In this document: positions 13,747-49,400 of the stretch, in pieces | Position numbering within the stretch: position 1 is the first letter of the stretch | How the letters are laid out: each line of letters opens with the position of its first letter | DNA from: Planctomycetota bacterium | GTDB taxonomy: Bacteria; Planctomycetota; Planctomycetia; Pirellulales; Lacipirellulaceae | Direction: 5' to 3' | NCBI GenBank assembly: GCA_029259945.1 | Contig: JAJDEF010000016.1 | Coordinates: 1-64,000, forward strand | Length of the DNA stretch: 64,000 bases | Translations under genes and position numbers: made by a program | Notes under the pieces: model-generated | What the model was told of the DNA's origin: nothing | What the model saw: only the letters and a program-made list of their open reading frames with translations | Database searches by the model: none

Positions 13747-13777
13747 TCGCTATGAGACCACTCGGATGCCCTGAGTA

Positions 13778-14086: not shown

Positions 14087-14368
14087 CAGAAGCTCCTCTT
14101 TTTTGGGCCTATTTCCGTGGCGTCCTAGCGAGTAGGTGCCGACTGCTGACACGATACCTGATTGGATAAAACCAGGGTAGGGTTGGTGCTAGCACGAAGG
14201 AGATCGAGGCAGACTGAGGTAGCCTCGTGGTCTGGGTTCGCCTAGTATTTGGCCCGGCGAAGCTCTCGCGTCTAGAGAGAGGTCGCTGTTTCGATCGCAG
14301 TACGCGGGTTTAGCTATCAACGTGTCTGTGCCCCCCCCAGAGTTTCAGTTTGTTATGGAGAACGAGCG

Positions 14369-15556: not shown

Positions 15557-15573
15557 GTTCACAAAAGCGACAC

Positions 15574-15602
15574 TTAACCTCGGCAGACGTTCGTGGTATA
15601 CC
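15574..15602 (+). promoter_or_regulatory. Possible promoter of pyrE
   Basis: TTAACC at 15574-15579, a 17-base spacer and TATACC at 15597-15602. It is followed by a five-base hairpin CGGTC-GGAAT-GACCG at 15606-15620 and a TTTTT shortly after. In other bacteria pyrE can be controlled by attenuation; here the stem is short and the U run is separated from it, so this is only suggestive. Confidence 0.35.
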
Positions 15603-15647
15603 CCACGGTCGGAATGACCGCAGCTTCGTTTTTGGGGAAATATCAGT

Positions 15648-16205
15648 ATGTACGATCGACAAGCTCTTCTCGAATTGGTTCGCGAACAAGCTTTGCAGTT
15701 TGGCGACTTTACGCTTGCCTCGGGCAAGAAGGCCAGTTTTTATCTTGATTGCCGGAAAGTGACGCTTGACGCTCGGGGCGCAAGGCTCATTGGCGAGGGG
15801 ATGCTCGAACTATTAGGCGACAAGCTACCTGCGCTGGTGGGTGGGATGGCCATTGGGGCAGACCCGATCACCGCCTCGATTTTGACTTTGGCAGGGATTC
15901 GCGATATCCCGTTGCGGGGGATTATCGTCCGAAAAGAATCGAAGACCCATGGCACGGGCAAGTATGTCGAGGGGCCTTATGAATCGGGCGAGAGTTTGGT
16001 CATTGTCGAAGATGTGGTAACCACGGGCGGGTCGTCGCTCAAGGCGATCGAACGTTGCGAGGCAGCAGGGCTCAAAGTGGAGCGTGTGTTGGCAATCGTT
16101 GACCGCCTGGAAGGTGGGCGCGAGGCATTCGCCGCGCGGGGTTATGAATTGACAACGTTGATGACGATCAAAGATTTTGGTATCGAGCCGCCCAAGCCTG
16201 AGTAA
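15648..16205 (+). CDS. pyrE: Orotate phosphoribosyltransferase
   Basis: Converts orotate and PRPP to orotidine 5'-phosphate in pyrimidine synthesis. The 185-residue protein has the family start LLELVREQALQFGDFTLASGKKASFYLDCRKV, the loop 'IIVRKESKTHGTGKYVEG' that closes over the active site, and the PRPP-binding motif LVIVEDVVTTGGSSLKAIE near residues 117-135. Length is normal and the ATG is the first in frame. No other pyr gene is adjacent; the following gene is a hypothetical on the same strand 42 bases on. Confidence 0.96.
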   Translation: MYDRQALLELVREQALQFGDFTLASGKKASFYLDCRKVTLDARGARLIGEGMLELLGDKLPALVGGMAIGADPITASILTLAGIRDIPLRGIIVRKESKTHGTGKYVEGPYESGESLVIVEDVVTTGGSSLKAIERCEAAGLKVERVLAIVDRLEGGREAFAARGYELTTLMTIKDFGIEPPKPE

Positions 16206-28743: not shown

Positions 28744-29151
28744 TTGATTGTGAGATTTGGCGTGGATGAGGCGGTCAATCTTATTGAATATTTGGTCCGC
28801 GAGTTGGGTATTACCCCGACGCAGGCCGAAGGTGGCGCGGGATTGCTGCTGGGTCTCGCTCAGAATCGGTTGGATGGCGAAGAATTTATGGAAATCGCCG
28901 ATTCGATTCCTGCTATCTCGGATATCATCGACAAAGCGCCCCGATTTGAAATGCCGCCTCCGCGACCAATGCGAGCGGTGATAAACCGTTGGTTTGGTGG
29001 ACTGGGCGACTTGAGCGTGCTGGTCAAGCCGTTTGAGGGACTGGGTATCGATAAGGTGGCGATTGTCAGTTTTGTTAGTGCGTTATCGAAGTTCTTCTCC
29101 GAAAAGGGGGGAGGTAGGGTCGAGTCGAGTTTACAGAGCGTGCTTCGGTAA
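28744..29151 (+). CDS. DUF2780-like small protein
   Basis: A protein of about 130 residues. The segment VNLIEYLVRELGITPTQAEGGAGLLLGLAQNRL followed by 'FMEIADSIPAISDIIDKAP' matches the DUF2780 pattern, in which a helical pair is followed by a glycine-rich turn. The end, 'KPFEGLGIDKVAIVSFVSALSKFFSEKGG', also fits. There is no signal peptide. Function is unknown. No ATG is available near the 5' end, so the start is TTG 28744 or GTG 28750 or 28762. It is 61 bases upstream of the HerA-like ATPase and may be in its operon. Confidence 0.65.
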   Translation: MIVRFGVDEAVNLIEYLVRELGITPTQAEGGAGLLLGLAQNRLDGEEFMEIADSIPAISDIIDKAPRFEMPPPRPMRAVINRWFGGLGDLSVLVKPFEGLGIDKVAIVSFVSALSKFFSEKGGGRVESSLQSVLR

Positions 29152-29212
29152 GGAAAATCGACGGTGTGGGCCGTTTGTTATTCAGCCAGTCTTTTTATGC
29201 AATAATGATTTC

Positions 29213-32865: not shown

Positions 32866-33161
32866 GCCGTTGCGACCAAAAGGCAAGCGGTTTTATCGGA
32901 TTGGCGGGATGAAGGTCGATAAATATTGGAATCCTTGTCTGACGAAGTTCTCGTAGAGTTGCAGAGTGAGGTCGCCTAAGATTACGTTATGTGGTCTACT
33001 TAGCCTGCGTATTTTACGCAATGCGGTTTCGTTGCGGGATTCGGCAAGTTGGGTTGCCAGACTATCCTTCCTGCAAGTTCGACTGGTGTTTATTATCAGA
33101 CATTCGTTGCCTTAAGTCGCAATTCGTTTCCCGTTGTCTCTCCTCACCTTTTCATCGCACT

Positions 33162-35315
33162 ATGCCAAGTAATCCAATTGATCGTGGTATGGAGTGGTGC
33201 ACATTGACCGACATGTTAGAGCAACGCGCTAGGAAACATCCTGAGCGTGTGGCTTTTGTTTTTGAAGAAGAGTCGGGCCACGTCACCGAGTATTCTTATG
33301 CAAAACTGGACGCGCGCGCGAGGGCGATTGCTGCTTGGTTAGTGGAACGTACTGAGCCGGGCGATCGGGTACTACTGGTTTACCCGCCGGGGCTCGAGTT
33401 CATCGCGGCTTTCTTTGGCTGTGCCTATGCCGGAGTATTGCCGGTGCCGGCGACCTATCCTAAGCCGCGCCGTCCCATGCCTCGGCTCGATTCGATAGTT
33501 GCCGATTGTCATCCGCGGTTGGTGCTGACCCATAGTTCGACGCTCGACGGACTAGCTTTGGAAGCACAATCGCCTGCAATTCGCGATCTAACTTGGGAAG
33601 CGACCGACCACCTTGCTTCGTCGATGGGTTCAGGGTTCCAGCCCGTTGGTCGAGAGCCTAGGGATATTGCCTTCTTACAGTACACGTCGGGTTCCACCTC
33701 AGATCCACGAGGCGTGATGGTCACCCATGACAACCTCTTGCATAATATGTGCGCGATCTGCGAAGGTTTTGCAATTGAAAATAACGAGGAGAATGGCCTT
33801 TTCCCGATTGCCGTGTTTTGGTTGCCCGCCTATCACGACATGGGATTGATTGGCGGAATTCTTTCACCTATTTCGGTGGGTGGAACCAGTTATTTATTAG
33901 CACCGACGACGTTCTTGCGGCGTCCCTTGCGATGGTTGGAGTTGTTGTCTCGTGTTGGGGCAGAGATTAGCGGCGCCCCGAACTTTGGTTACAAGCTTGC
34001 TGTCGAGAAGTCGACTCCCGCTGAGCGTGCGGAGCTGGATCTCAGCAGTTGGCGGTTGGCCTTCTGTGGCGCTGAGCCGATCCATCCCGATACCTTGAAC
34101 GATTTTTCTGAGGCATTTGCGGATTCTGGATTTCGTAGAGCCGCATTCTATCCCTGTTATGGCTTGGCGGAGGTGACCTTGTTGGCCTCGGGTGGTAAGG
34201 GACCATCGGAGCCGAGTATTTTGCATGTCGATCGGCAAGAACTTGGGAATCATCGCGGAGTCCGAATTGAGAGTTCACATCCTCGGGCGCAGGCATTGGT
34301 AGGTTGTGGTGCTCCGCGAAATGGTAATACGGTAAAAATTGTCGACCCCCAGACGGGGACTGAATGTGACGAAGGTGGCGTGGGTGAAATTTGGGTGCAG
34401 GGTGGATCAGTCACGCAGGGTTATTGGAAACAAGACGAGCTCAACCAAGAGATATTCCGGGCGTCGTTGAATGGCGATGGGCAAGAGACATTTTTACGGA
34501 CGGGCGATCTTGGGTTCTTTTATGAGGGCGAGTTGTATGTGACGGGGAGGCTCAAGGATGTGATTATCATCCGTGGTCGAAATCACTATCCGCACGATAT
34601 CGAGCGGACTGCCCAGCTTGCGCACGAAGCGGTGGATATGGGGGCGGCATTCTCGGTCGAGGGGGAAAGAGAAGAGCAACTCGTTGTTGTGCATCAATTG
34701 CGACGCGAGCATCGTGGCGCGGATAAAAACGAAGTGTTACGTGCAGTCCGCAAAAGTATTGTCGACGAACATGATCTTGACCCGCTTGCGATTCTACTGA
34801 TTCGCCCGGTGAGTTTGCCGATCACTTCCAGTGGGAAAGTGCAGCGAAGGCTGTGCCGCGAGCAGTACTTGGCAGGCCAATTGTCAGTGGTTGGCGAATG
34901 GACCAATCACGTTGCGGACGGGGTATGCAACATCGAGCGAGCCGCCGCGGTTGCTGGTGCACCCAGCTTTTTAGAAAACTTGGGCCAAGCGACCCCCGAT
35001 GCGTTGGCGGCAGAAATTCAGGAGTGGCTGATTGCCTGGCTCACAGAGCGGGCGAATCTCAACCCCGGGACGATGACCGCGACAACCCCCTTTGCGGAGC
35101 TTGGCATCGACTCGCTGACGGCTGTCGAGATCAGCCAAGAGCTTGATCAAGTGCTTGGCTTGCGACTGCCTCCGATGGTGATCTGGAGTTGTCCGAATCC
35201 TGAAACCTTGGCTCATTATCTGGCCGAGCGGCTTGTGGCAAACCGCTTGGCCTTGGAAAGTAACGGGACGGCTGGAGCTAGCTCTTCGGTTCGAGATCGA
35301 GGGCTGGATCGATAA
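33162..35315 (+). CDS. Fatty acyl-AMP ligase with C-terminal acyl carrier domain
   Basis: A 717-residue adenylation enzyme. AMP-ligase motifs: FLQYTSGSTSDPRGVMVTH (from residue 173), LPAYHDMGLIGGIL, YGLAEVTLLASGG and 'LRTGDLGFFYEGELYVTGRLKDVIIIRG'. This order and wording match FAAL-type enzymes, which activate fatty acids as acyl-AMP without forming a CoA ester. A carrier domain follows, with the phosphopantetheine serine S651 in ELGIDSLTAVEI. The acyl group is thus loaded onto its own ACP. No polyketide, NRPS or phosphopantetheinyl-transferase gene is visible nearby. The last 38 bases overlap the end of the convergent TolC-like gene. The start is uncertain (ATG 33162 or 33189). Confidence 0.88.
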   Translation: MPSNPIDRGMEWCTLTDMLEQRARKHPERVAFVFEEESGHVTEYSYAKLDARARAIAAWLVERTEPGDRVLLVYPPGLEFIAAFFGCAYAGVLPVPATYPKPRRPMPRLDSIVADCHPRLVLTHSSTLDGLALEAQSPAIRDLTWEATDHLASSMGSGFQPVGREPRDIAFLQYTSGSTSDPRGVMVTHDNLLHNMCAICEGFAIENNEENGLFPIAVFWLPAYHDMGLIGGILSPISVGGTSYLLAPTTFLRRPLRWLELLSRVGAEISGAPNFGYKLAVEKSTPAERAELDLSSWRLAFCGAEPIHPDTLNDFSEAFADSGFRRAAFYPCYGLAEVTLLASGGKGPSEPSILHVDRQELGNHRGVRIESSHPRAQALVGCGAPRNGNTVKIVDPQTGTECDEGGVGEIWVQGGSVTQGYWKQDELNQEIFRASLNGDGQETFLRTGDLGFFYEGELYVTGRLKDVIIIRGRNHYPHDIERTAQLAHEAVDMGAAFSVEGEREEQLVVVHQLRREHRGADKNEVLRAVRKSIVDEHDLDPLAILLIRPVSLPITSSGKVQRRLCREQYLAGQLSVVGEWTNHVADGVCNIERAAAVAGAPSFLENLGQATPDALAAEIQEWLIAWLTERANLNPGTMTATTPFAELGIDSLTAVEISQELDQVLGLRLPPMVIWSCPNPETLAHYLAERLVANRLALESNGTAGASSSVRDRGLDR

Positions 35316-37443
35316 TCTTTGGTTGCTCTATTGGCGAGTCGCCACTCGGCGGTAGCGGGAGCAAGAGTTCGCTGTCGTGACTTACTGGTTCCACGGTCTG
35401 TGGCGAATGGTCGGTCGTTGATTCTGAGGAGACGTCGTTTTCGCTCGGAACCGGATCGGACGGTAGCGGCGAGGTAGAATTCAATTGCTGCTCGTAGGGC
35501 CCGTAGCTAACGCGCGGGGCGTGCGCGGAGGTGTAGTTCATGGGTTGGCGGTGACCCCGCAAACTTTCGCGACGGGCAGCATCTTGATACGCCTGTTGTG
35601 GCCAACCACCTTCGCTAAGATAGACGCCATCGTAATCGAGTAACGTCCCTTTGGCGTAGTGGACATTTTTCACCGCGACCGCGTATTCCGTCAACGTTTG
35701 GTAATAGCGGCTTTGCGCATCGGCGAGGCGGCGCTGCGAATCGAGAAGCAGGTCGAGCGATATTTTGTCGGCTTCGAAGGCTGCCTCGACCGCTTCCATC
35801 TGCTGCCGGGCCGCTTCAAAACGATTGAGGGCTGTTTGGGAAACCATGTAGGCCCGTTGCATTTCGGCCACTGCCGAAGCGACATCGTGCAATACGACGT
35901 GCTCCTGCTCTCGCAATATGGCTCGCGACCGACTCAGTTGGAGTTCGGCATTGCGAGCTGCAGAAAAGGCGCGTCGAAAGCCAATCGGAACGCTCAGCTC
36001 TAAGCCCAGTTGCCATTCCTGAAAATCGCCGCTGGTGAGGTCTTCCCAGGCGTTGTCGAATCGTGGGTTGCCGCCGTCTGCGTCGAGTAGCCCCTGACCA
36101 AAGCCGCGCCAGCGATAGCGTCCAATGGCATCGAGTCGTGGCAGCAGGTAGTTTTTGCTAGCGATCCATTCCAGTTCGCTACGGCGTGTTTCAAACCGTT
36201 GTCGGCGGAGTTCAGCGCGTCGGATCACCGATTCGCGAGAAATCTGAGTCCAATCGAATTGGACGGGCGCGGTCATGGGTTCGTCGGCTGGGCGGAGTAA
36301 ACGCCCATCGCTGGGTGGTAATCCCATCAACATGCGTAATCGACGTTCCGCCACATGGACGCCCCCATTAGCGCGAAAAGTGCCGCCGCCACTGCCATTG
36401 CCTGTTCGTGTGCCATCGATTCTTCGGCCGCTCAGCGCGTTTTGCACTTCTTCTTGGAAACGGAAGAACTGCTCGCGAGCTTGGGCTTCTTTTTCTGCTT
36501 CGCCACCGCGTCTTCCCGATTCGTAAAGTGCATGGACCCGCCGCCAGGTATCTAGGGCAGCATCTCGGGCGGCAATCTTTGCGTCGAGATCGCGGTAGGC
36601 AAAGTAGAGATCCCAATAAGCATTCTCGATATTGCTGACAAGATTGCGGATGGCCATTTCAAAGTCGGCCAGTTCAACGTCCATGTTGACCCGTGCAATA
36701 AGCACCCCGCCGTAGACGCCGGGGGTGGTACTTGGTCCGGCAATGCGATTGAATTGCATACCGCTGCCTTGGAGAAGTGGATGCCGGAATTCGGTTTCTA
36801 GATTGACATTCCAAGCACTAGGGAATCGGTTGCCAGGGGCGTTGTTGGCATCGTACTCGGCATTGTGTCGAAAAGTTAATTCGGTACCAGAGACCGCTCG
36901 TTTTGTTAGCTGCGACTGCAAAGTGAAAGCATCTTGCTGAAGGATTCTTGTGCCGCCGCCAAAGAACTCGTTATTCAGGGCCTTGTCATTTTTTTCGCCA
37001 AAGACGCTGGTAGAAAATTGGGCATCGAAGGCACTCAGTGCAGCTTCGACACCAAAGCGAGGGTCGGTTTCTTGAAGGGCTGGATCCCAGTACGTCTCGG
37101 CGGTGGAAGGAGAACGCAGGATGGCTCCACCAAGATCTCGCAATACTTTGGATTGTGAAAGCGAAAGTTGAATCACTTCTTCGAGCTTCACCTCCCAATA
37201 TTCGGTTTCGCCCAAGTTGGCCAGGGTCACAGGTTCGAGGCTGGCCCAATCTTCGCTAGAGCAGCCGCACTGGCTGACTTGGGGATACTCGATCTGGGTG
37301 GCCAGCGCGTGGTAGCAGTCGCCCGTCTGACATGCCTTGAACTCGTTGGCACCGCGAGACCTGCAACCACCAACGACCGCGACGATCAAACCGATCGACA
37401 GCAGCAGTATTTGCTTTGGCAGTAGAGAACGGGTGCAAGACAA
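35278..37443 (-). CDS. TolC-like outer-membrane efflux lipoprotein
   Basis: A 721-residue outer-membrane factor. The N-terminus is a lipoprotein signal (QILLLSIGLIVAVVGGC, with C27 as the lipid-bearing cysteine). Two long helical repeats follow, each with a TolC-type pattern: 'LVSNIENAYWDLYFAYRDLDAKIAARDAALDTWRRVHALYESGR' and 'HDVASAVAEMQRAYMVSQTALNRFEAARQQMEA'. Beta segments such as RHPLLQGSG and 'ELSVPIGFRRAFSAARNAEL' form the barrel. The C-terminal 100 residues are Pro/Ser-rich. It forms a channel across the outer membrane. It is divergent from the HlyD operon at 37663 and is its likely partner. Confidence 0.9.
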   Translation of the reverse strand: MSCTRSLLPKQILLLSIGLIVAVVGGCRSRGANEFKACQTGDCYHALATQIEYPQVSQCGCSSEDWASLEPVTLANLGETEYWEVKLEEVIQLSLSQSKVLRDLGGAILRSPSTAETYWDPALQETDPRFGVEAALSAFDAQFSTSVFGEKNDKALNNEFFGGGTRILQQDAFTLQSQLTKRAVSGTELTFRHNAEYDANNAPGNRFPSAWNVNLETEFRHPLLQGSGMQFNRIAGPSTTPGVYGGVLIARVNMDVELADFEMAIRNLVSNIENAYWDLYFAYRDLDAKIAARDAALDTWRRVHALYESGRRGGEAEKEAQAREQFFRFQEEVQNALSGRRIDGTRTGNGSGGGTFRANGGVHVAERRLRMLMGLPPSDGRLLRPADEPMTAPVQFDWTQISRESVIRRAELRRQRFETRRSELEWIASKNYLLPRLDAIGRYRWRGFGQGLLDADGGNPRFDNAWEDLTSGDFQEWQLGLELSVPIGFRRAFSAARNAELQLSRSRAILREQEHVVLHDVASAVAEMQRAYMVSQTALNRFEAARQQMEAVEAAFEADKISLDLLLDSQRRLADAQSRYYQTLTEYAVAVKNVHYAKGTLLDYDGVYLSEGGWPQQAYQDAARRESLRGHRQPMNYTSAHAPRVSYGPYEQQLNSTSPLPSDPVPSENDVSSESTTDHSPQTVEPVSHDSELLLPLPPSGDSPIEQPKIIDPALDLEPKS

Positions 37444-37509
37444 AGTGATCGCTCGAATCGATATGGATTTCTAGTGTTACTGCGAAACTTGGCAGCCTCG
37501 CATTCGTTT

Positions 37510-37539
37510 TCGACACCTGAGAACTGGAAATACTATAAT
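37510..37539 (+). promoter_or_regulatory. Promoter of the GAF-HlyD operon
   Basis: TCGACA at 37510-37515, an 18-base spacer and TATAAT at 37534-37539. It lies in the 219-base gap between the divergent TolC-like gene and the operon, and would start transcription near 37546. Confidence 0.55.
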
Positions 37540-37662
37540 TTCCGTTAGAAGCGGCAAACCTTGCGCAGATTAACAAGCTGGCACGACTAGACCGCCACTT
37601 CTACTGTTTTTCTCTACATCCGCGTGCTATCAGTCAGGAATCTGAAGGTTTGGATATACTGA

Positions 37663-39735
37663 ATGGTGATGTCCTCTACCCAACAACATGACGCAGTCGA
37701 CAGTGGCTGGCCTCAGCTCGAGGAATTTGTCGAGCAACTGCACGAGCTGGCGCATGCGCCGATCGGGGTCGAAGCATTCTATCGTCGACTGTTGGAGGGA
37801 TGTGTGCCTACCCTGGCAGCGTCTGGGGGCGCAGTTTGGCTGGCCAATGCGCAGGGACGTTGGAAACTCCTTCACCAGATCAATTTGCCACAAGTGATGA
37901 GTCAGGAAGATCGCACGGCCGAGGCGGCGCGCGATTCGCTACTGCAAAAAATTGCTTTATCGCACGAGGCCATGATCTTTCAGCCCCATAGCGGAACGGT
38001 CGAGGTGCGAGAGAACCCAACAGATTCGGTGCTCGTTGCGTCGGCCGTCCACAGCGATGCCAGCTCGCCAGAGACCAAGCCGGTAGCCATCATCGAACTT
38101 TTCATGCGCGCGGGTACAAGTCCCGCAGTGCAGCAAGGTTGGCAGGATATGCTGTCGACCGTTTGCCACATTGGGGCCAGCTATCACACCTTTGACGAGT
38201 TACGTAGTTTGCAAGTCGAGCGTGGTTTGCATGGCCAGTCGTTAACTCTGCTGAAACGGATCAATCAGCCGACGGATTTTCGTCAGACGATGTTTGAGAT
38301 TGCCAACGAGGGTCGCAGTTTTGTCGAGGGCGATCGCCTTAGCGTGGTATTACGTGATGGCCGTTCTTGGCGATTAGCGGCCGTGAGTGGCGTCGATCGC
38401 ATTGAGGCACGAGGCGACACGGCGAAGAAGTTAGAGCAATTGGCCGATCGTACCGCAAGCTGGGGCGAGCCCATTGATTTTGGGGATGCCGAGCCGTGCA
38501 GCGAGGGACTCGCCAGCCGTGACGATCTTCCGCCAGAACTAACCTGTGTTCTTGAGCAACAGGTCGATCTCTCGCACGCCCGTCGGTTGGTGGCTGTGCC
38601 GCTTGAATTTGCCGAGGAAGTCGATTCGAGTCAAGTATCTCCGACGCCACCGGGTCAACCAAGGGCTGTTCTGATTGCCGAGCAGTTTAGTGCCCCGACT
38701 CCTGGTTTTTCGCATCAGCGAGTTGTCGAGCTAGCTCAATTGTGCGAGCCTGCGCTGCGTCAAGCAATTCGGTTGAATCGTTTTCCCACGCGTGTTTTTC
38801 TGAGGTGGACGGATCGTTGGGCCCACGCACATCGAAATTGGGGAAGTCGACGATTGGCGCTTGCAGCGTCTGCAGCAATGGCGATCGTCGCGGCGCTGGT
38901 TTTTGTGCCCTGTGACTTCGAGGTCGAAGCTCCCGCGACTTTAGTTCCTTTGGTTGAACGCGACGTATTCGCGACGGCCAGCGGGATTGTTACCGAGGTG
39001 CTGGTTGGCCACGGCGAAGAAGTTCAAGCAGGCGAGGTATTGGCGGTACTCGACGATCCGCAACTTGCGTTGGACACCCAGCGGTTGCAGGGAGAGATGG
39101 AAACGGTACGAAATCGGTTAGAAGCCATTGCCGTGGCGAGGACCGACCGCAAGGTTCAAGCAGATACAGACCGCGAACGTTTGCCGTTGTCTGCAGAAGC
39201 TCAGCAGCTAGGAAAAAAACTGGCGAGTTTAGAGCGACAGCGAGAGATTTTGGCTGCTCGTCGTGCAGCGCTCACCCTTCGTAGTCCGATTGCTGGGCGA
39301 GTGCTGACGCTTGATGTACAGAACTTGTTACGGATGCGTCCGGTCGAAAGAGGGCAGATGCTGCTGAAAGTGGCCGATGTCGACGCAGGCTGGTGGTTAC
39401 TGGCCGAGGTCGCACAAGATCGGATAGGGCATGTGGTTGCCGAGCAACAGTCTAGCGAGGTGAGTTTGCCGGTCAGGTTCCGCTTTGCGGGCGAAGAGTC
39501 CAAGATTTCCACCGGGCATGTGGAGTCGATCAGTGCGACGGCAGTGCTTGATCTCGATGCATTAAACGAAGCGGCCCCGGCCTTACCGGTGCGTGTGGCG
39601 GTCGACGAGTCTTCATTGCCGACGGCTCGGCCAGGGATGACTGCGAAGGTTCGTATTTACTGCGGTCGGCGCTCGTTGGGCTATGTTTGGCTGCATGATG
39701 TTTGGGAAACAATTTATTCGTGGTTGGTGTTTTAA
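37663..39735 (+). CDS. GAF-domain and HlyD-type membrane-fusion protein
   Basis: A 690-residue fusion. Residues about 30-190 and 205-385 look like two GAF-type cytosolic domains (GGAVWLANAQGRWKLLHQ; FVEGDRLSVVLRDGRSWRLAAVSG). A single membrane helix at 397-418 (LALAASAAMAIVAALVFVP) is followed by a periplasmic HlyD-like adaptor: lipoyl half VFATASGIVTEVLVGHGEEVQAGEVL, a helical hairpin, and 'LRSPIAGRVLTLD' closing it. The layout puts a sensor in the cytosol and an adaptor in the periplasm. The start is ATG 37663. It is the first gene of the operon; its stop codon shares a base with the next start. Confidence 0.85.
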   Translation: MVMSSTQQHDAVDSGWPQLEEFVEQLHELAHAPIGVEAFYRRLLEGCVPTLAASGGAVWLANAQGRWKLLHQINLPQVMSQEDRTAEAARDSLLQKIALSHEAMIFQPHSGTVEVRENPTDSVLVASAVHSDASSPETKPVAIIELFMRAGTSPAVQQGWQDMLSTVCHIGASYHTFDELRSLQVERGLHGQSLTLLKRINQPTDFRQTMFEIANEGRSFVEGDRLSVVLRDGRSWRLAAVSGVDRIEARGDTAKKLEQLADRTASWGEPIDFGDAEPCSEGLASRDDLPPELTCVLEQQVDLSHARRLVAVPLEFAEEVDSSQVSPTPPGQPRAVLIAEQFSAPTPGFSHQRVVELAQLCEPALRQAIRLNRFPTRVFLRWTDRWAHAHRNWGSRRLALAASAAMAIVAALVFVPCDFEVEAPATLVPLVERDVFATASGIVTEVLVGHGEEVQAGEVLAVLDDPQLALDTQRLQGEMETVRNRLEAIAVARTDRKVQADTDRERLPLSAEAQQLGKKLASLERQREILAARRAALTLRSPIAGRVLTLDVQNLLRMRPVERGQMLLKVADVDAGWWLLAEVAQDRIGHVVAEQQSSEVSLPVRFRFAGEESKISTGHVESISATAVLDLDALNEAAPALPVRVAVDESSLPTARPGMTAKVRIYCGRRSLGYVWLHDVWETIYSWLVF

Positions 39736-40628
39736 TGAAGCCCCCTATTTTTAAGTTGGCAGGAAACGTCGTCCCGGTTCTTTTATTGAGTCTGATTGGA
39801 CTTGCGTCGACTGATGCCGTCGAGCAGCCGACGATCTTGGTCGAGTCGGTGGTTCTAAGGCCACTCCAAGCAGCGGAAGTGCCCTCGCGTCAGACAGGTC
39901 TGCTGGAATCGATAGGTGTTGAGGAAGGTCAGAGCGTCGAGAAAGGCCAGATTTTAGCTTCGCTAGATGCGCGTGAGGCATGGCTTGTGGTGACCCAAGC
40001 AAAATTGCAATCGGCACAAGCTGAAGCCAAAGCCAAGAATTTTGTTCGCGTCGAATATGCGCAGAAAGCGCTCGACGTTGCGAAAGCTGAATTGCAGCGA
40101 TCGCAGGAATCGATCGCGAAGTTCCCGAAGAGTATTTCTCAGTCGCAGGTAGATGTTGAACAACTGACGGTAGAAAAACTTGAGCTTGAACTTCAACAGG
40201 CTGAGCATGAAATGACGCTGGCTCGCTATGATTTTGAACTCGCCGAAAACGAAAGAAAGGCTTCGAAATTGCGACTCTCCTTGCATCAGTTGCGAGCCCC
40301 GTTTGCGGGAACAGTAGTATTGGTTCGTGGTCGGGTGGGAGAGTGGGTCGAGGTTGGCGCCCCGGTGCTGCGATTGGTAGCGACCGATCGCTTGCGAGCA
40401 GAAGGGTTTTTAGCAGTGGAAAGTGTGACTGCGGATTTGGTAGGTCATCCGGTGAGGTTTTTAGTAGGAACAGGCGAAGGCGAACAGCAGGTTGCTGGAG
40501 TGTTGCGATTTGTCAGCCCCGAGATGGACCCTGTTACCCGACAGGTACGCGTGTGGGCCGAGTTGCCTGGGTTGCAGGGCGTATTGCGTCCGGGGCAACA
40601 AGGTTCGATGGAGATATTGGCCAAGTAA
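39735..40628 (+). CDS. Periplasmic HlyD-type adaptor
   Basis: A 297-residue adaptor with a signal peptide or anchor (FKLAGNVVPVLLLSLIGLAS). The lipoyl domain halves are RQTGLLESIGVEEGQSVEKGQILASLDA and 'LRAPFAGTVVLVRGRVGEWVEVGAPVLRL', joined by a coiled-coil hairpin of about 100 residues; the C-terminus is the beta-barrel domain (VTRQVRVWAELPGLQGVLRPGQQGSMEI). This is the classic membrane-fusion protein that bridges an inner-membrane pump to a TolC-like channel. Its ATG overlaps the preceding stop (TAATG), so it is translationally coupled. The next gene starts 31 bases later. Confidence 0.9.
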   Translation: MKPPIFKLAGNVVPVLLLSLIGLASTDAVEQPTILVESVVLRPLQAAEVPSRQTGLLESIGVEEGQSVEKGQILASLDAREAWLVVTQAKLQSAQAEAKAKNFVRVEYAQKALDVAKAELQRSQESIAKFPKSISQSQVDVEQLTVEKLELELQQAEHEMTLARYDFELAENERKASKLRLSLHQLRAPFAGTVVLVRGRVGEWVEVGAPVLRLVATDRLRAEGFLAVESVTADLVGHPVRFLVGTGEGEQQVAGVLRFVSPEMDPVTRQVRVWAELPGLQGVLRPGQQGSMEILAK

Positions 40629-40659
40629 CGGGTAACGTGTTGGCGAATGGTGTTTTGTG

Positions 40660-42834
40660 ATGAAAACAAACTCGGTAACTAACTTGGCTGCGATCGATCG
40701 TCCGTTGGGTCTGCGCGCACGGGGAGATCTCGAACCGGTGTCGGTCACGTTCGTAGGCCAGTCGACCTATGTGCTTAAAGATCCGCTCACACTGGAATAT
40801 ACGCATCTCACGGCCGAAGAGTATTTCCTGTTTGAATCGCTTGAGAATTCGATTTCGCTCGGCGAGTTGCGACGCGAATTCGAGAAGAAATTCGTTCCAC
40901 GACAAATCACGCACGAAGCGTTACAGCAGGGAATCAATCATCTGTATAGCGAAGGCCTGCTATTAAGCAAAAGCGAGGGGCAGGGGCGAGAACTTTTTCA
41001 GCGAGGTGAACGCCGCAAGCGAACCGAGCGATGGCAAAGTCTGCTGCAGCTACTGTCGTTTCGCTTAGGGAGCATTGATGCAACGCACCTTATTGATGCC
41101 GTCTACGCGAAGATGCGTTGGGTATTCTCTGCGTCGATGCTTGCCGTGGTTGCTGCAATCGTTTTTTACGCCGGTTGGATTCTTTTGTCGCAGAGCCAGA
41201 TGGTTCTCGCCCGGTTGCCGAGCATCCATGAACTTGCCCAGCCCGAGTATTGGGTGCTTTGGCTGGCAACTTTTGTCGTGGTGAAAGTCATTCACGAGTT
41301 AGCCCATGCCGTGACGTGTCAGCATTTTGGAGGTCGTTGTCACGAGATGGGGGTGCTGCTGCTTGCCTGCGTGCCTTGTCTCTATTGCGACGTGTCAGAC
41401 GTTTGGCGATTGCCGAATAAGTGGCAGCGAATCGCCGTTTCGGCGGCGGGGATGATCGCTGAGTTCGTGATTGCTGCCGTTGCGATGATTGCTTGGTGGC
41501 ATTCCCAACCAGGCTTGCTAAACACTTGGTGCTTGAGTTTGGTGATTGTTTGCTCGGTCGGGACTTTGTTAGTGAACGCGAATCCCTTGTTGCGCTACGA
41601 CGGTTACTACCTGCTTTCCGACTTCGTCGAGGCGCCGAATCTGGCTGGTCGTGCTCAAGGTCTGTTGCCAGGCAGGGTGCGAAGTTGGTTGTTGGGTGAA
41701 CCGCGGGTCGAGGATCCGCTGCTCAGCAAACGACAGAAGCGAGGCTTGCTCGTCTATGCCGTGGCGGCGCGGATTTACTTGACGATGGTCTTATTGGGTA
41801 TTTTGGTAGTGTTGTTGGCTTGGGCTCGGCCGTATCGATTAGAAAATGTGGTTTATACAATCGGGTTGATTACCTTGTTTGGGATGTTCGTCCGACCAGT
41901 GATGGCTATTGGTCGAATGGTAAAGAACCCTTCGCTGCGTTTTCGTCTACGGAACCTGCGTGTTGCGACCTTGGTGGCGGGGATTGCTGCAACGATCGCG
42001 GCCATCTTGTTTTTGCCGATTTCGCACTCGGTGTCTGGTTCGATGGTTCTTGTTCCTGCTGCAGGGAAAACGGTTTACGCAACCCACGCTGGCGAACTAC
42101 GCTACGCCGTGGCTGTAGGAACTCAGGTCGAGCAAGGGGAGGTGCTGCTACGGCTGGCCGATCCTGAAATCGAGCTGGCGATAGCACACCAGCAGGGTGA
42201 ATATGATGTCCGGCAAGTGCGTTACGATCAGCTTGGCGTTTTGCGAGCTTTGGATGAACAGGCACTGCAGCAGTTGCCCACAGCTCGGGCGGCATTGACG
42301 GACGCTAGGTTGCAAATGGAAGAGTACCGTCAGCAGGCCGAGGAGTTGGTGATTCGGGCTCCTGCAGCGGGAACCATTGTCGCTCCGCCGCAGATAGAGC
42401 AGGCTACGGGGGACGAAGGGCTTTTGCCTCGTTGGACAGGATCTCCGCTGGAACCGCGTAATTTGGGCTGCTGGGTTGAAACGGGAACCGTTCTTTGCAC
42501 GTTGGCCGACCCGGGCCGGTTAGAGGCTTTGCTGGCCATCGATCAAGCAGATGTTTCCGAAATTCGATCTGGGCAGGTAGTCAGACTTCGGCTTGATGCT
42601 GCGCCGTCACGAATTTTTGAGGGAGAGGTCATACAGGTTGCCCGACGAGCTGCACAGAAGTCAGAAGGAGTTGCGAGTTCGCAAAAATACCATTTGGTAC
42701 AAGTTCGTTTGAATCGTCAGGATCGCGATTACTTAATTGGGGCTCGTGGACAGGCAAAGATCGAAGCCAGTCGGATGACGCTGAGCGCAATGATCACGAC
42801 GCAGTTGCAAAGGATGCTGCAATTGCCTTGGTAG
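40660..42834 (+). CDS. PqqD-like/M50 metalloprotease/HlyD fusion protein
   Basis: A 724-residue protein. The N-terminal 110 residues resemble PqqD/YydH-type winged-helix domains (YVLKDPLTLEYTHLTAEEYFLFESLE; ITHEALQQGINHLYSEGLL). A membrane-embedded M50 protease follows: HELAH at 212-216, NPLLRYDG at 308-315 and 'CLYCDVSDVWRLPNKW' between them, as in YydH-like peptide zinc metalloproteases. The last 270 residues are a HlyD-like adaptor (lipoyl halves near 445-490 and 560-610). Such fusions would link peptide recognition, intramembrane cleavage and export. The start is ATG 40660 (a GTG lies three bases before). No ABC transporter is in the operon. Confidence 0.88.
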   Translation: MKTNSVTNLAAIDRPLGLRARGDLEPVSVTFVGQSTYVLKDPLTLEYTHLTAEEYFLFESLENSISLGELRREFEKKFVPRQITHEALQQGINHLYSEGLLLSKSEGQGRELFQRGERRKRTERWQSLLQLLSFRLGSIDATHLIDAVYAKMRWVFSASMLAVVAAIVFYAGWILLSQSQMVLARLPSIHELAQPEYWVLWLATFVVVKVIHELAHAVTCQHFGGRCHEMGVLLLACVPCLYCDVSDVWRLPNKWQRIAVSAAGMIAEFVIAAVAMIAWWHSQPGLLNTWCLSLVIVCSVGTLLVNANPLLRYDGYYLLSDFVEAPNLAGRAQGLLPGRVRSWLLGEPRVEDPLLSKRQKRGLLVYAVAARIYLTMVLLGILVVLLAWARPYRLENVVYTIGLITLFGMFVRPVMAIGRMVKNPSLRFRLRNLRVATLVAGIAATIAAILFLPISHSVSGSMVLVPAAGKTVYATHAGELRYAVAVGTQVEQGEVLLRLADPEIELAIAHQQGEYDVRQVRYDQLGVLRALDEQALQQLPTARAALTDARLQMEEYRQQAEELVIRAPAAGTIVAPPQIEQATGDEGLLPRWTGSPLEPRNLGCWVETGTVLCTLADPGRLEALLAIDQADVSEIRSGQVVRLRLDAAPSRIFEGEVIQVARRAAQKSEGVASSQKYHLVQVRLNRQDRDYLIGARGQAKIEASRMTLSAMITTQLQRMLQLPW

Positions 42835-42836
42835 GG

Positions 42837-43574
42837 CTAGGGAATTAGCAGTATAAGACCTGCCACCACGCCGACCTGAGCAATGGCTCCTGTGACCTTG
42901 AGAGGGAGGCGATTTCGGCGTCTTGGTACACAGCTACCGGGGCGGTAGTGCCCTAGGGTGTATTGGCAGTCATGGGGACGATCGACGGCCATCTTGTAAG
43001 GCAAGGCAGGAATCGTAAGGAAGAATCGTGTCGCTGAGATCACTGGCTGCAAGAGGTAGCTTGCCGAGTAGCCGTAGCGTTCGGCATTGATTTCTTCGAA
43101 GTAGAGAGGCCGATGACGCAGGCCAGTGGCTGCCCAATGTCGATCGGTCATTGCCCAGCCTTCTTGTATCCGACGATCAATGGTCGGTGGCTGGGTCGCT
43201 GCACATTCGCCAGCAAAGTTCTCTGGCAACGAACCACCGGGTAGAGAGATATTGCTTGCTAGCGACGACAACGGCAGACCCACATGGCATCGTGAATGGA
43301 CTTTTTCTTCGGAGGCAGCAGAGTGATCAGGTGTAGCGATGACTTCGGTATTTTCCTCAGGCGAGGAAAGATCTCTTTGGTCTGCAAAGAGATCTAATGC
43401 TAGGTGGCTGGCAAGTCGAAGTGTTGGGTTCGTTGCCCACTGAATGACCGATTCTTCGCCGTGCAGCAACGAGATAGCCGTGGCGGGCCAGAAGAAGGCG
43501 ATGGCGCAAACGGTTATTAGCCAACATCGTTTCGAATTTGCCTTGCGGCTGGGTGGGGCGGTAGTAAAGGGCAT
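42837..43574 (-). CDS. Conserved planctomycete-type hypothetical membrane protein
   Basis: About 245 residues. An N-terminal hydrophobic segment (CWLITVCAIAFFWPATAISLL) and a C-terminal one (VTGAIAQVGVVAGLILLI) frame a soluble part that holds 'LRHRPLYFEEINAERYGYS', a phrase I associate with a planctomycete-specific family of unknown role. It ends two bases after the convergent M50-HlyD gene. The start is uncertain; I use ATG 43574, with an open frame to 43622. Its position inside the export locus suggests a link, but nothing in the sequence proves it. Confidence 0.5.
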   Translation of the reverse strand: MPFTTAPPSRKANSKRCWLITVCAIAFFWPATAISLLHGEESVIQWATNPTLRLASHLALDLFADQRDLSSPEENTEVIATPDHSAASEEKVHSRCHVGLPLSSLASNISLPGGSLPENFAGECAATQPPTIDRRIQEGWAMTDRHWAATGLRHRPLYFEEINAERYGYSASYLLQPVISATRFFLTIPALPYKMAVDRPHDCQYTLGHYRPGSCVPRRRNRLPLKVTGAIAQVGVVAGLILLIP

Positions 43575-43814
43575 CGAGACTCTCGAATCGGGGGTTGCTG
43601 TCGAACAGGCCGTAGAAAGCACTGTCGACGCCGGAGAATCGGTTTCTCAAGAAGATTCGGTCTTGTCCGCACGACCCGAGCAAGCGGTATTTCCCGCAAA
43701 GTTTACCTGGTTTTCCATGCTCGAGAGCCGGATAACCCCGTGATAGCAGCGGCTAAGGTGGGTTTCCGGGGCCCTCACTTGGTGAAAACGGCAAGCCGAG
43801 AGCATGCCAAATAT

Positions 43815-43844
43815 TTGACAACCCGACGCATTTGTTTGAATAAT
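43815..43844 (+). promoter_or_regulatory. Possible promoter of the PKD surface protein
   Basis: A perfect TTGACA at 43815-43820, an 18-base spacer and AATAAT at 43839-43844. Transcription would begin close to ATG 43851, giving a near-leaderless mRNA. If the real start is GTG 43740 this promoter would lie inside the gene, so the call is tentative. Confidence 0.4.
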
Positions 43845-43850
43845 CGACAG

Positions 43851-46367
43851 ATGGGACTCTATTCAATATTCCCCCGAATTTTTTCTCCACCGAGTCGACC
43901 ACGACTCGCTGCTGCTCCGCTCTTGCCGCAGCGTTTAGAACGTCGACGCGTGCTTGATGCTTCTGCAGCGAGTTTGCTACTTGGGCCATCGGGTGCCAGC
44001 GAATTTGTGCAGGTTGGGGAAATCTTCGACCCGGCGCCAACGGAAGCCGATTCGCTTGATACCGTCGCAGCGGCGAACCTCAATACACCTCCTTCGGCGA
44101 TCAAGTTTTTGAACGTCTCGAAAGAGGTCACCGAGTCTGGTATCGCCCAATTGGCATTTCAGTTTGAAGACCCAGATATTGGAGATACGCACACGGTCGA
44201 GATTGATTGGGGCGATGGTACGATCGATACGCTTACGCTTAAGAACGATGAGCGCGAAGTTTCGGCCACGCATCGCTACCTCGACGATACACCGACCGGT
44301 CCAACAGAAGTTCCGTATGCGGTTGCAGTCAAGGTAACGGATAGCGATGGCGGAATCGCCACTGCCAAGACGCAGGTGTTGGTGAAGAACAGCGAACCCT
44401 TGATGTTTGTGTCGCCGGTCTCAGACATTGCCGAAGGGGGAGTGGCCCGACTGTCGTTCATTTTTTTCGACCCTGGTATTCTGGATACTCATGTGGTCGA
44501 AATTGATTGGGGAGACGGGACAGTCGACACGGTGATTCCCCCCGCAGGAGACCGATCTCTCATTGCCAATCACCAATACCTCGATGACACACCCACGGGG
44601 CCAACGGAGGTAGCCTACACGATAAATGTCAAACTCTCTGACGATGATGGTGGCGTGGCCACTGCCAAGACCAGTGTGCTGGTGAAGAATGTTGCTCCTT
44701 CGAATCTTCAAGTCACCCCAGTTGCCGTGATCGACGAAAATAGCTTTACGCAGCTGCAAATCACTTTTGACGATCCCGGGACACTGGATACCCATGCGGT
44801 CGAAATTGATTGGGGAGACGGGACGATTGACACGTTGACTCCTCCATCGGGGTCGCGGTTCTTGATCGTCAATCATCAGTACCTCGACGACATGCCCACG
44901 GGGCCTACGGAGATTGCTTACCCGATCGATGTTAAAGTAACCGACGACGATGGTGGTGTGGCAACCGCCAAGACCAGTGTGTTGGTGAAGAATGTTGCTC
45001 CGACTATCGACCGCCTATTTCTCTCTCAATCGGTGATCGAAGAAGGCAACTCGGTGACGGTCACCGGGACGTATAGCGATGCGAGCCGCCTCGACACGCA
45101 TACCGTCATGGTCCGATGGGGAGACGGAACGAGCGAAGTGCCCACTTTTACCAATGTGAATGGGGCGGGTTCTTTTACGGCAACCCATTTTTATGCCGAC
45201 AACGACACGCCGAATCCCGACGATGGCCCGGTGCCAGATAATCTTTACACGGTTGCCGTGACGGTCGTAGACGACGATGGCGGAGAAACCACGAAGACGA
45301 TCGATCTGACGGTTCTCAACGTTAGCCCGATTTTAGATCCAATTATTGAGGCCACCGACGTGAACTCTCGGGGGGAAACATTTTTGACGATCCGTTTCTC
45401 TGACCCGGGAGCAGATACACTCACGGTTTATGTCGATTGGGGAGACGTGCGAGATCCTAGCGACCCTTCGATGAGGGCGCTGCAGCCGTTTGTGATCGAC
45501 CTGACGGGTATCGATGGTCCGGGCACGTTCACCGTGACGTTGATGCACGTTTACAGCGGGCCCCCGAATCCGGCCAGCCCCGCAGCGGACATCGATCTTT
45601 TTGTATTTGTCGCCGACGATGACTTTGGCGATGCGGTGGTTGCCGACGGCCAGAGCGAAATCAGGATGGCGACCATCAAGAATCCAGGTATTGGCGAAGA
45701 GCCTGTGTTTATTGATACGACTCCACAAGTGCCTCGCCTAGTTTTTCCGCCTCGAGCGCAGAGTTTCTTTTTTGAAACGACCTCGACTGACGCAGGCGGT
45801 CGATCAGGAGGGGAGTTACAGGCCGCCGCTGGCGATACGAATGTCACCACCGAGCGCTACCTAGAACTCCGAGAGTTCGACGAAGACGGCAATCTTGTCG
45901 AGAGCTACCGGCTCAAACCCGAAGTGCTCCGCGATCTGCCGGGGTTATTTCGCAAGTTGCCAGATAAGCACTACGAAATTCATCTTGTTCATACCGAGAC
46001 GAATACGCGAAGGCTGGTTCTTGCCTTTGATATTCGCAAGGGCAAGGCGATTGATCTTAGTGATGACTCAGAAGGTACGCTTGATCGCCCACCTACAGAT
46101 GAGGTTATTCGCCCCTTTGAAGAAGCGGTAGAAACCTCGGATGAGACCACCGCGCTTCCCCCAGCCAACTTTGATCCGTTAACCATCGATCAGCCCAGCG
46201 ACCGGCCAACGGCAACGCAATTTACGGGATTGGCGATGGTGGGATTGGCGGCAAGCCAGTCGTTCTCGTCGTGGGCTGAGCAGGTCGATCGCACGGTTGC
46301 TCAGGCAGGACGGAAAAAATGGCAGCGACTACGGCTGCACAGGCCGAATCGTCGGAAAAATCGGTAA
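43851..46367 (+). CDS. PKD-repeat surface protein with N-terminal LERRRVLD motif
   Basis: An 838-residue protein. Residues 29-36, LERRRVLD, sit in the N-terminus like the LEPR-XLL motif of large planctomycete surface proteins and are followed by ASAASLLLG. Five PKD-like modules follow: VEIDWGDG at about 116, 216 and 317, 'VMVRWGDG' near 419 and 'VYVDWGD' near 526. The first three lie 300 and 303 bp apart. The C-terminus has a hydrophobic stretch (GLAMVGLAASQSF) and a basic tail (LHRPNRRKN), like a sorting tail. It lacks a normal signal peptide. GTG 43740 would add 37 residues. Likely an exported adhesin or wall protein, and the candidate substrate of the adjacent export genes. Confidence 0.75.
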   Translation: MGLYSIFPRIFSPPSRPRLAAAPLLPQRLERRRVLDASAASLLLGPSGASEFVQVGEIFDPAPTEADSLDTVAAANLNTPPSAIKFLNVSKEVTESGIAQLAFQFEDPDIGDTHTVEIDWGDGTIDTLTLKNDEREVSATHRYLDDTPTGPTEVPYAVAVKVTDSDGGIATAKTQVLVKNSEPLMFVSPVSDIAEGGVARLSFIFFDPGILDTHVVEIDWGDGTVDTVIPPAGDRSLIANHQYLDDTPTGPTEVAYTINVKLSDDDGGVATAKTSVLVKNVAPSNLQVTPVAVIDENSFTQLQITFDDPGTLDTHAVEIDWGDGTIDTLTPPSGSRFLIVNHQYLDDMPTGPTEIAYPIDVKVTDDDGGVATAKTSVLVKNVAPTIDRLFLSQSVIEEGNSVTVTGTYSDASRLDTHTVMVRWGDGTSEVPTFTNVNGAGSFTATHFYADNDTPNPDDGPVPDNLYTVAVTVVDDDGGETTKTIDLTVLNVSPILDPIIEATDVNSRGETFLTIRFSDPGADTLTVYVDWGDVRDPSDPSMRALQPFVIDLTGIDGPGTFTVTLMHVYSGPPNPASPAADIDLFVFVADDDFGDAVVADGQSEIRMATIKNPGIGEEPVFIDTTPQVPRLVFPPRAQSFFFETTSTDAGGRSGGELQAAAGDTNVTTERYLELREFDEDGNLVESYRLKPEVLRDLPGLFRKLPDKHYEIHLVHTETNTRRLVLAFDIRKGKAIDLSDDSEGTLDRPPTDEVIRPFEEAVETSDETTALPPANFDPLTIDQPSDRPTATQFTGLAMVGLAASQSFSSWAEQVDRTVAQAGRKKWQRLRLHRPNRRKNR
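44150..45000 (+). repeat. Three tandem PKD-coding units of about 300 bp
   Basis: GAAATTGATTGGGGAGACGG-type phrases recur at 44196, 44496 and 44799, and 'GCCAAGACCAGTGTG(C/T)TGGTGAAGAA' recurs at the unit ends. The units are close enough to suggest recent duplication. Confidence 0.8.
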
Positions 46368-46489
46368 TCGGCGCCCTCCTCATCGCCACGGCAAATTACA
46401 ATCGAGGTTAGAGCGTTTAGTGATCTGCCCTGTTGTGTGCTATCTCGGTAGACCCCCTCTCGACACCCATTCTTTTTTCGACACCTTCG

Positions 46490-49400
46490 ATGCCAAACTG
46501 TCCTGCATGTCATGCCAAGTTGGACGAGCCTTCGCTCGCGGCGCGCCGTTGCGCTTTTTGTGACGCTGCGCTCGATAGTGTTTCATCGCAGAACGCGTTG
46601 AATCAATCGGATGCGGATGAAACGATTGAACTTCAAGTGAACGAGGATGGAACGGTAGACGAATTCGCCACGGTCGACCCTGAGCAAGTGAATCGAGAGG
46701 ACAGCTTAGAGGGAACCGAGACGGTGGAGTTGGGGGGCGATAGCCTAGCGAGCATCGACATCGACGTCGTTGAGCAGGCTGATCCTGACAGCGCCACGAT
46801 TGCCTTTCATGCCGAGAAAACGATTGACTTTTCAACTTTAGAGGGAGACAAACTTTCTGAGAGCCAAGTGACGGCTCAGTGGCTAGACAATGTCGAGGGT
46901 GGTAGCGACCTCTCTCCTGATGTGACCATTAAACAAAAAGAGACGATCACTGGGACGTATGTCTCGCAATCGTCATTGGTGGTCAAATATCGCAATCTTC
47001 GTTCAACCGCCGACAAGTCTGCATCGAGTGTGTCGGCAGCCGATGCCCCCGACTACGAATTACTAAAGGTCATTGGCGAAGGTGGCATGGGGGTCGTGTA
47101 CGCCGCTCGCCAATCGGCGATCGCCCGAACAGTGGCGTTGAAAATGCTTCGAGGTTCAGGCGCCCAAACGGCAGAACAGCGCGAGAAGTTTATTTCGGAA
47201 GCCGTGATCACGGGCGAGTTAGATCATCCCAACATCGTGCCGATTTATGATTTGGGAGCGAACGACTCTGGGGCGTTGTTCTACTCGATGAAGCGGGTAC
47301 GTGGTACGCCGTGGAACGACGTGCTTGAGAAAAAGTCGCTGGCCGAAAATCTGACGATTTTGCTGGCGGCTGCCGATGCGGTTGCTTTTGCCCATGCGAA
47401 CGGTGTGCTGCATCGTGATCTCAAGCCCGAGAACATCATGCTCGGCGATTTTGGCGAGGTGCTAGTCATGGACTGGGGCTTGGCTCGGATTAGCGATGAA
47501 TTCCCTAATGCTGATTCGGTCACCCAGTCGGACGTCATGGGCGGAACGCCGGCTTACATGGCACCAGAGATGGCCACCGGCCCAATCGATCTGGTGAGCG
47601 AAGCGAGTGATATTTATTTATTGGGGGCGATTCTTTATGAAATTGTCGCAGGGCAACCGCCTCATACAGGCAAGAATGTCATGGCTTGCTTGTTCGCGGC
47701 TTCGAAGAACAAGATCGTAACGACGGAGCAGTCAGGCGAGTTGATGGACGTCGCGCTGACCGCAATGGCTACCAAGCCTGCGGATCGGTATGAGACAGTC
47801 CAAGGTTTGCAGGAAGCTATCCGGCGGTATCAATCCCATTCCGAAAGTGTTGCTCTCACCGATAACGCTACCAAAAATCTCATAGTCGCCCAAGAAGCGG
47901 ACGATTATGAGCTGTTTTCGCGAGCCGTTTATGGTTTTCAGGAAGCATTAACGCTATGGGATAGCAACGCTCGAGCGCACGAGTCTCTTTCTGATGCGCG
48001 TGTTGCTTATGCAAGGTCAGCGCTGGCGCGTAGCGACTTTGATTTGGGCCTTTCGTTGTTGAATGTTGACGACGAAAAGCATCATTTAGTCTTCGGGCAA
48101 CTAGAAAAAGGTCGTCGCGAACGAGAGCAACGCAAGCGACGTTTCAAATGGTTGAAGGGCTTGGTTGCCTTGCTGATTGCGGTTGTGGTGGGAGTGGTGT
48201 TGGTGGCCAATGCGGCCGTTCGTACTCAGCGTGATAAGGCAATCGTTCAGCGCGATCGGGCAGTCAAAGCCGAAGGCGAAGCTGTAGAACAGCGAGATCG
48301 TGCCGTGGTCGCCGAAGGCGAGGCCCAGGAAAACTTCAAAAAAGCGGAAAGAGAAAAAGAACGTGCCGAGCAACAACGGAAAATTGCGATCCAAGCAAAG
48401 CATGACGAAGAATACGAGGCCTATGTTGCCCGCATCGGGTTGGCCAGTGCGAAGATCGAAGAAAACGCCTTCGATCGTGCGAATGCCTTGTTAGAGCAGT
48501 GCCCCGCAGAATTATGCCATTGGGAGTGGGGGCGGCTTTCGCATCTCTGTCAACTGAGCCAGAAGACTTGGAGCGTAGACGGGCCCGTGGAGTCGGTCGC
48601 TTATTCGTCTGATGGTCGATATTTCTTGACTGGCGATTGGGACGGCAAGGCACGACTTTGGGATGCGAAGACAGGCGAAGTGAAGCAAATAATCTCGCAT
48701 GGGCAATACGTGCATGCGGTGGCCTTCGATCCGGCAGGAAAACGTTTTGCGACAGGCAGCAGTGATCGCACGATTCGCCTCTATGACGTTGCAAGCGGGA
48801 AGCTCCTCCAGACACTTACAGGACATGATGATGCCGTCTTGTGTGTGAGATTTTCGTCCGATGGAAACCATCTTCTCAGCGGGGGCTACGACAACACGGC
48901 ACGCATTTGGGACATTGCGGCGGGGCAGGTAACGCAAAAGTTACGGGGGCACACCTGGTGGGTTTGGGCGGCTGAGTTTTCTCCCGACGACCAACGCATC
49001 GTGACCGCTAGCCAAGATGGTAAAGCCATTGTATGGCAAATGACAACGAACACTGAAAACGATCGCACCCAGTACGAGGTGCTCACCGAATTTACAAAAC
49101 ACGATGGCCCGATCTACGATGCCAAGTTTTCGCCCGATGGCAAAAGTGTTGTAACCGCTGGTTATGATCGCCGTGTGTTGTTGTGGAACCCTGACGAAGT
49201 TGAGCCGGTCGATATCGCGCGTCGACTCGAGAATCAGGAAGACCCTCCCGCTCCCTTCCGAGAATTGTCCATTCACGAAGGGCCTGTCCGCACGGTGGCA
49301 TTTTCTTCGGATGGCAATCGAGTTGCCTCGGGTGGGCAAGATAACGTCGTGCGAATATGGCACCTGTCCTCGAACCAAGCAGGAAAGGTGTTGCGGGGGC

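Follow-up and report, generated by a model that had tools for sequence, protein, structure and literature searches.

A planctomycete gene set consisting of a GAF-HlyD protein, an HlyD protein and a fusion of an M50 site-2 protease to an HlyD adaptor probably exports very large surface proteins that carry a short N-terminal LExR tag, driven by a motor of the SecA type and with TolC as the channel. The link between this gene set and LExR proteins is apparently the new element. The operon was analyzed in a stretch of 64,000 nucleotides, here called the window (G000:C8:1-64000), from a 3.48-Mb planctomycete assembly; the window contains the export half of the system. A sequence-only reading of the window had tied the operon to LERRRVLD/LEPR-XLL proteins, and this tie is now strongly supported by co-occurrence (OR 51) and by gene neighborhood in two phyla. 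That reading had also treated the system as planctomycete-specific, which turned out to be wrong, as the gene set is also found in proteobacteria, including on E. coli plasmids.

All five genes claimed for the locus are present at the coordinates originally given. The gene for a TolC/OEP-type outer-membrane lipoprotein (35278..37443, minus strand; PF02321, E 6e-23; lipobox VVGGC) is divergent to the operon, from which it is separated by a 219-bp gap in the ORF coordinates (37444..37662). A divergent TolC gene is also kept in other type-A loci, and its product is a candidate outer-membrane exit duct. The operon begins on the plus strand with GAF-HlyD (37663..39735), which has a cytoplasmic GAF-like part, one transmembrane segment at about residues 395-415 and a periplasmic adaptor part. 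The HlyD half of its label is borne out by Pfam (PF13437, 1e-10), but the GAF domain has no Pfam match in the window protein and is assigned by homology, with 10 of 15 homologues matching. Next is an HlyD or RND-type periplasmic adaptor (39735..40628, plus strand; TIGR01730, 1e-31, above the cut-off), the ATG of which at 39735 overlaps the preceding stop codon; an alternative start is the TTG at 39702. The third gene (40660..42834, plus strand; PF02163, PF13437 and PF16576) encodes the fusion of an RRE domain, a site-2 protease (M50) and HlyD, and starts at either GTG 40657 or ATG 40660. The earlier gene list had left out a minus-strand gene, x43 (42837..43622), for a conserved protein with no Pfam or NCBIfam match, which lies between the fusion and an LExR protein in the window clade and in loci L075 and L098. 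In agreement with the claim that the locus holds no ABC, RND or MFS pump, none turned up in the ORFs between 29 and 52 kb.

Several other genes surround the operon. A fatty-acyl-AMP ligase with a carrier-protein domain (32991-35315) lies upstream of TolC and keeps this place in L032-L034 and L036; a lipid link is possible. A large protein-kinase/WD40 protein (46433-51364), conserved in L031, L032 and L034, is found downstream of the tagged protein, and a P-loop ATPase-like protein (29033-31657; VGMTGSGKTG) closely resembles one encoded in the vicinity of the L033 operon (13625-16042).

The candidate cargo in the window is a PKD-repeat protein with a basic N-terminus (43851..46367, plus strand; PF18911, 1e-14), with its ATG at 43851 and the longest ORF running from 43740. 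It carries QRLERRRVLDASAA, and its N-terminus contains LLPQRLERRRVLDASAASLLLG; the LERRRVLD tag is encoded at 43935..43958 on the plus strand. Pfam finds only PKD repeats in this protein. Across tagged proteins the consensus is L-E-x-R-x-[LVM]-[LFYM]-[DSA]-A, preceded by a basic N-terminal stretch. Most tagged N-termini have no hydrophobic core (the 15-residue hydropathy maximum is about 1, with two at 1.9 and 2.6), and because of this and the basic stretch, the LExR tag is not a classical signal peptide. The tag is shared with the LEPR-XLL N-terminal domain (NF012209, LEPR-8K), which is the tag of neighboring cargo. However, the window protein falls outside that NCBI model, with no match at E<=1, and the tag is broader (LExRx[LVM][LFY][DSA]A), taking in the DUF4347 giants. 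A broadened model of 30 positions was built from 27 tagged N-termini to make up for the narrowness of the NCBI model. It scores the window PKD protein at 4e-5, a protein that was itself in the training set, and it matches 15 places in the window genome at E<=0.1. Annotated starts of giant genes fall inside or past the LExR tag in two records, L156 (NZ_CP123586.1) and L142 (NC_013860.1), and annotation likely hides the tag in records like these.

The association between tag and operon was measured in 244 Planctomycetota genomes, with the M50-HlyD fusion called at E<1e-60. The fusion was found in 75 of these genomes and the NCBI LEPR-XLL model (LEPR-8K) in 39. Both were present in 36 genomes, LEPR only in 3, the fusion only in 39 and neither in 166 (OR 51, p 1e-18), so that M50-HlyD occurs in 36/39 LEPR-positive genomes compared to 39/205 of the others. 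One of the LEPR matches kept in these counts, in G173, is probably spurious (a 138-aa frame with a stop). Outside the class to which the window belongs, the corresponding counts were 24, 3, 13 and 164 (OR 101). Shuffling within families, which takes away much but not all of the shared ancestry among the sampled genomes, gave 18 observed and 11.5 expected (p 5e-5). Additionally, LEPR genes were found no more than 15 kb away from M50-HlyD in 8 cases, where 1.8 were expected (p 5e-4). When the nine training genomes were left out, the broadened model matched 43/66 genomes with the fusion and 6/169 without it at E<=1e-3 (OR 51, p 9e-24). With all genomes included and a threshold of E<=1e-2, it matched 60/75 with the fusion and 14/169 without, leaving 15 of the 75 with no tag match. 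The operon is therefore not widespread in the absence of tagged proteins. PEP-CTERM, an equally short surface tag used as a control, showed no association with the fusion (OR 1.5, p 0.11).

A cross-phylum comparison rests on plasmid records, and the N-termini in them had no part in forming the idea. Homologues of M50-HlyD are found on plasmids of Alpha-, Beta- and Gammaproteobacteria, and in all 15 loci with a readable start the giant ORF at the gene set carries an LExR tag; four further loci end before the start of the giant ORF and are outside these 15. The tags are LEPRFLLSAD in Pseudosulfitobacter, LEPRVVYDAS in Burkholderia, LESRQLFDGA in E. coli, IEPRILLSAD in Thalassospira, LEARLMFDAA in Eleftheria, LEPRFMFDAA in both Azospirillum argentinense and Azospirillum B510, LEPRMLFDGA in Kosakonia, LEPRLLYDAA in Cupriavidus, LEPRMMFDAA in both Tistrella and Niveispirillum, LEPRVLLNAD in Methylosinus, MEPRVLLSAD in Pontibrevibacter, LEARYMFDAA in Variovorax and LEPRLLLAAD in Alisedimentitalea. 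The Alisedimentitalea and B510 tags were read after correction to an upstream start, and the giants of B510 and Tistrella are about 10 and 5 kb away from the gene set. All loci together have 969 ORFs with a length of 300 aa or more, in which the tag pattern was found 35 times, with no more than about two apparently unrelated cases. Three of the plasmid cargo proteins are annotated as LEPR-XLL by NCBI. Of 5,426 genomes, 24 have the E. coli form, which is plasmid-borne in most cases. The Variovorax cargo gene (CP063167.1 19413-68132, in L152/L159) is 48.7 kb long and encodes about 16,200 residues.

A scan of 84,980 genomes gave 459 relatives of the fusion, and the best 80 of the 459 were kept. 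Nearly all of these 80 are titled as planctomycete MAGs or genomes, and L098, titled otherwise, groups inside the planctomycete tree. Among the best 80, the order GAF-HlyD, HlyD, M50-HlyD recurs in essentially every intact locus, and because of this the three-gene order is far beyond chance. A tree splits the TolC-linked loci, including the window, from a clade of 66 TolC-less loci with 97% support. The window genome has one operon of each type, the second on contig C16 (L020), and both types often coexist within one genome. This second, TolC-less triad (G000:C16, 3038-8585, minus strand) is followed, at a distance of about 1.6 kb, by a PEP-CTERM protein. In the close relatives L030-L032, the tagged PKD protein and x43 hold their position, and identity to the window is 67-77% over the 30 residues that surround the tag, while the whole PKD proteins align at 38-44%. 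In the distant loci L075 and L098, x43 is followed by another tagged protein (LEDRRVLS and LEERRVLS, respectively). L033 has no such PKD protein at the locus, and L034 has a PKD homologue without a recognizable tag; an 'LE*RRLL' stretch upstream of the L034 PKD gene was rejected as a tag and attributed to chance.

The fusion protein was modeled with AlphaFold2 from 24 homologues (mean pLDDT 82.5), and its three domains were aligned to known folds with VIA-align. The first (residues 17-106; 40705..40974, plus strand) is an RRE/PqqD-like domain and candidate leader-binding domain, matching TbiB1 with the TbiA leader peptide (5v1v, Z 9.6) and lasso B1 with a leader peptide (6jx3, Z 9.5). The PqqD-like assignment made earlier thus holds by fold but not by sequence in the window protein, as a sequence match was obtained only in a homologue and under the cut-off (PF05402, 1e-4). 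This domain is predicted to precede the first transmembrane segment and so to be cytoplasmic. The second domain (residues 135-325; 41059..41631, plus strand) is an S2P-like intramembrane protease core that matches an RseP orthologue (7w6y, Z 10.9), SpoIVFB (8vjl, Z 10.2) and MjS2P (3b4r, Z 9.5). Its catalytic residues are intact, with HELAH at residues 213-217 (nucleotides 41293-41307) and Asp315 in NPLLRYDG, and HExxH is present in all 24 + 20 aligned homologues; with this motif, the downstream Asp and the modeled S2P fold, the M50 domain is a site-2 protease as far as the model goes. The third part (residues 454-715; 42016..42801, plus strand) resembles MacA/HlyD adaptors, with Z up to 17.3 (MacA, 9qgy_G). 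Since a domain of the leader-binding type is joined in one chain to an intramembrane protease and an adaptor, the fusion has the anatomy expected for reading, cutting and passing on tagged cargo, and the model suggests that it may carry out these events in that sequence.

We consider it likely, with real room for doubt, that the operon is the envelope part of an export pathway for tagged proteins that combines RRE, SecA, S2P, HlyD and TolC. In the proposed pathway, the cargo would be marked by its basic N-terminal region and the LExR tag and would have no hydrophobic signal sequence. The RRE domain of the fusion would bind the tag at the inner membrane, and a short dedicated SecA would then feed the unfolded chain through or alongside the membrane domain of the fusion. 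The S2P domain would clip the leader, and the three HlyD-type proteins together with TolC would take the chain to the cell surface.

The energy source had been called unknown in view of the missing pump, and this part of the earlier claim has to be revised, as a short second SecA is probably the missing motor. In the M50-HlyD cluster of Pseudosulfitobacter, a gene labeled as a prepilin peptidase in fact encodes a homologue of SecA (E 1e-175), and the window genome encodes a short SecA of 647 aa that is 44% identical to it. This gene is on contig C21 (G000:C21) and the operon on C8, so the two are unlinked in the window genome. In relatives, the short SecA adjoins M50-HlyD in L111-L113, L120-L123, L125, L126 and seven alphaproteobacterial loci, lies a few kb from the operon in L093 and is just past TolC in L054. 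A dedicated model was used to score it, because Pfam SecA_DEAD seems to split one gene in two (families f7 and f59), and M50-HlyD was present in 56 of the 57 genomes that have the short SecA. The window assembly, which is 92% complete, yielded only the short SecA, and a housekeeping SecA seems to be absent from it. No SecA was found in the locus in the DUF4347-type loci (E. coli, Burkholderia, Cupriavidus and others) or in Thalassospira, so not every locus has a dedicated SecA of its own. A small DUF3467 protein is also linked to the system, occurring in 60/75 genomes with the fusion and 19/169 without it; in the window genome its gene (G000:C15:71652-71906) is unlinked to the operon. As a possible SecB-like chaperone it gave a model of too low quality for comparison (pLDDT 54), and a sequence search yielded no solved relative. 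DUF3467 also accompanies the system in L148 (17648-17944), and SapC does so in three loci (L131, L143 and L122), so that both are seen with it in several lineages.

The same data bear on a different route, in which tagged proteins pass through SecYEG, driven by the short or the housekeeping SecA, and the RRE-S2P-HlyD/TolC set comes into play only once translocation is complete, serving as leader peptidase and as a conduit across the outer membrane. This route would agree with the homology of the linked ATPase to SecA, with the proteobacterial loci that have no dedicated SecA and with the locus having no other inner-membrane pore. However, the short SecA of the window genome matches the DEAD, cross-linking and P-loop domains and not SecA_SW, which suggests that it lacks the scaffold/two-helix-finger region that works with SecY, and most tagged N-termini have no hydrophobic core. 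We therefore regard passage through SecYEG as doubtful, while giving it serious weight.

A second alternative is that the tag is a surface retention or anchoring signal, comparable to the N-terminal module of LapA-type adhesins, which M50 would cut for release while export depends on another signal. The cargo proteins are indeed giants that resemble adhesins and contain cadherin, VCBS or PKD repeats, and a Vibrio LEPR-XLL giant has a C-terminal RTX (PMC10868602). This is improbable, though, given that these loci have no ABC transporter, that S2P enzymes work in or at the inner membrane and that the RRE is predicted to lie ahead of the first transmembrane segment and thus in the cytoplasm. It is more improbable still that LEPR-XLL proteins and the module each only reflect a lifestyle with a complex envelope. 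The class to which the window belongs does have both of them commonly, but no association is seen for the similar surface tag PEP-CTERM (within-family p 0.96), and that of LEPR-XLL proteins with the module persists within families and also shows as physical proximity. The least probable reading of all is that the module exports a small molecule or a RiPP-like peptide and has LExR proteins as accidental neighbors. Its closest relatives in NCBIfam are indeed metalloproteases of RiPP pathways (daptide, YydH/LiaK), and HlyD/TolC parts serve small molecules too. This reading is nevertheless unlikely, since no precursor peptide or modifying enzyme was noticed in the loci read and since proximity to tagged giants holds across phyla (15/15 resolvable) alongside the co-occurrence.

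The earlier statement that such a system had not been described is incorrect for the genes and apparently correct for the substrate. Kamneva, Poudel & Ward (2015) described a T1SS-related module of M50-HlyD, GAF-HlyD and HlyD/biotin-lipoyl proteins, sometimes with an OEP, together with a secondary SecA_DEAD protein, and noted that Methylobacterium extorquens AM1 carries the operon (META1p2399-2402; PMC4452313). They suggested SecA as the ATPase and the M50 protein as the pore, mentioned cases of unlinked secondary SecA, although it is usually in the same locus, and called the broader role completely unknown; no substrate was named and LEPR is absent from the text (PMC4452313). Open-access papers on giant proteins, LEPR-XLL, DUF4347 and M50+HlyD assign no substrate to the module; among them only that study overlaps with this one, and none of later date connects the module with LEPR-XLL proteins. 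The system described here agrees with the 2015 module in having M50-HlyD, GAF-HlyD and HlyD together, a secondary SecA in the genome and no ABC transporter, and differs in that the SecA of the window is unlinked and TolC is linked. The LExR cargo link, the RRE fold, the DUF3467 link and the SecA-less form of E. coli and Burkholderia are new additions to that module.

Type I secretion (HlyB-HlyD-TolC, or LapBCE for adhesins) likewise uses HlyD adaptors and a TolC channel and has giant repeat adhesins as cargo. However, the window system has no ABC ATPase, its tag is N-terminal, its protease is fused to the adaptor and its ATPase is of the SecA type. RiPP maturation proteases (YydH/LiaK, daptide MpaP) are the best match of the M50 domain, but here that domain shares its chain with an RRE and an HlyD adaptor, and the cargo is 500-13,000 aa. 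It is an even call whether this is a separate type of Gram-negative secretion system, which would be characterized by an LExR leader, an RRE-protease-adaptor fusion, a stripped-down SecA and a TolC exit, and would carry cargo of up to 13,000-16,000 residues in planctomycetes and proteobacteria. To our knowledge, the export route of giant surface proteins without classical signal peptides, which are found in planctomycetes and many marine bacteria, is an open question. Since its description in 2015 the module has been without an assigned role, and its tie to LExR proteins provides a substrate along with candidates for the signal and the motor.
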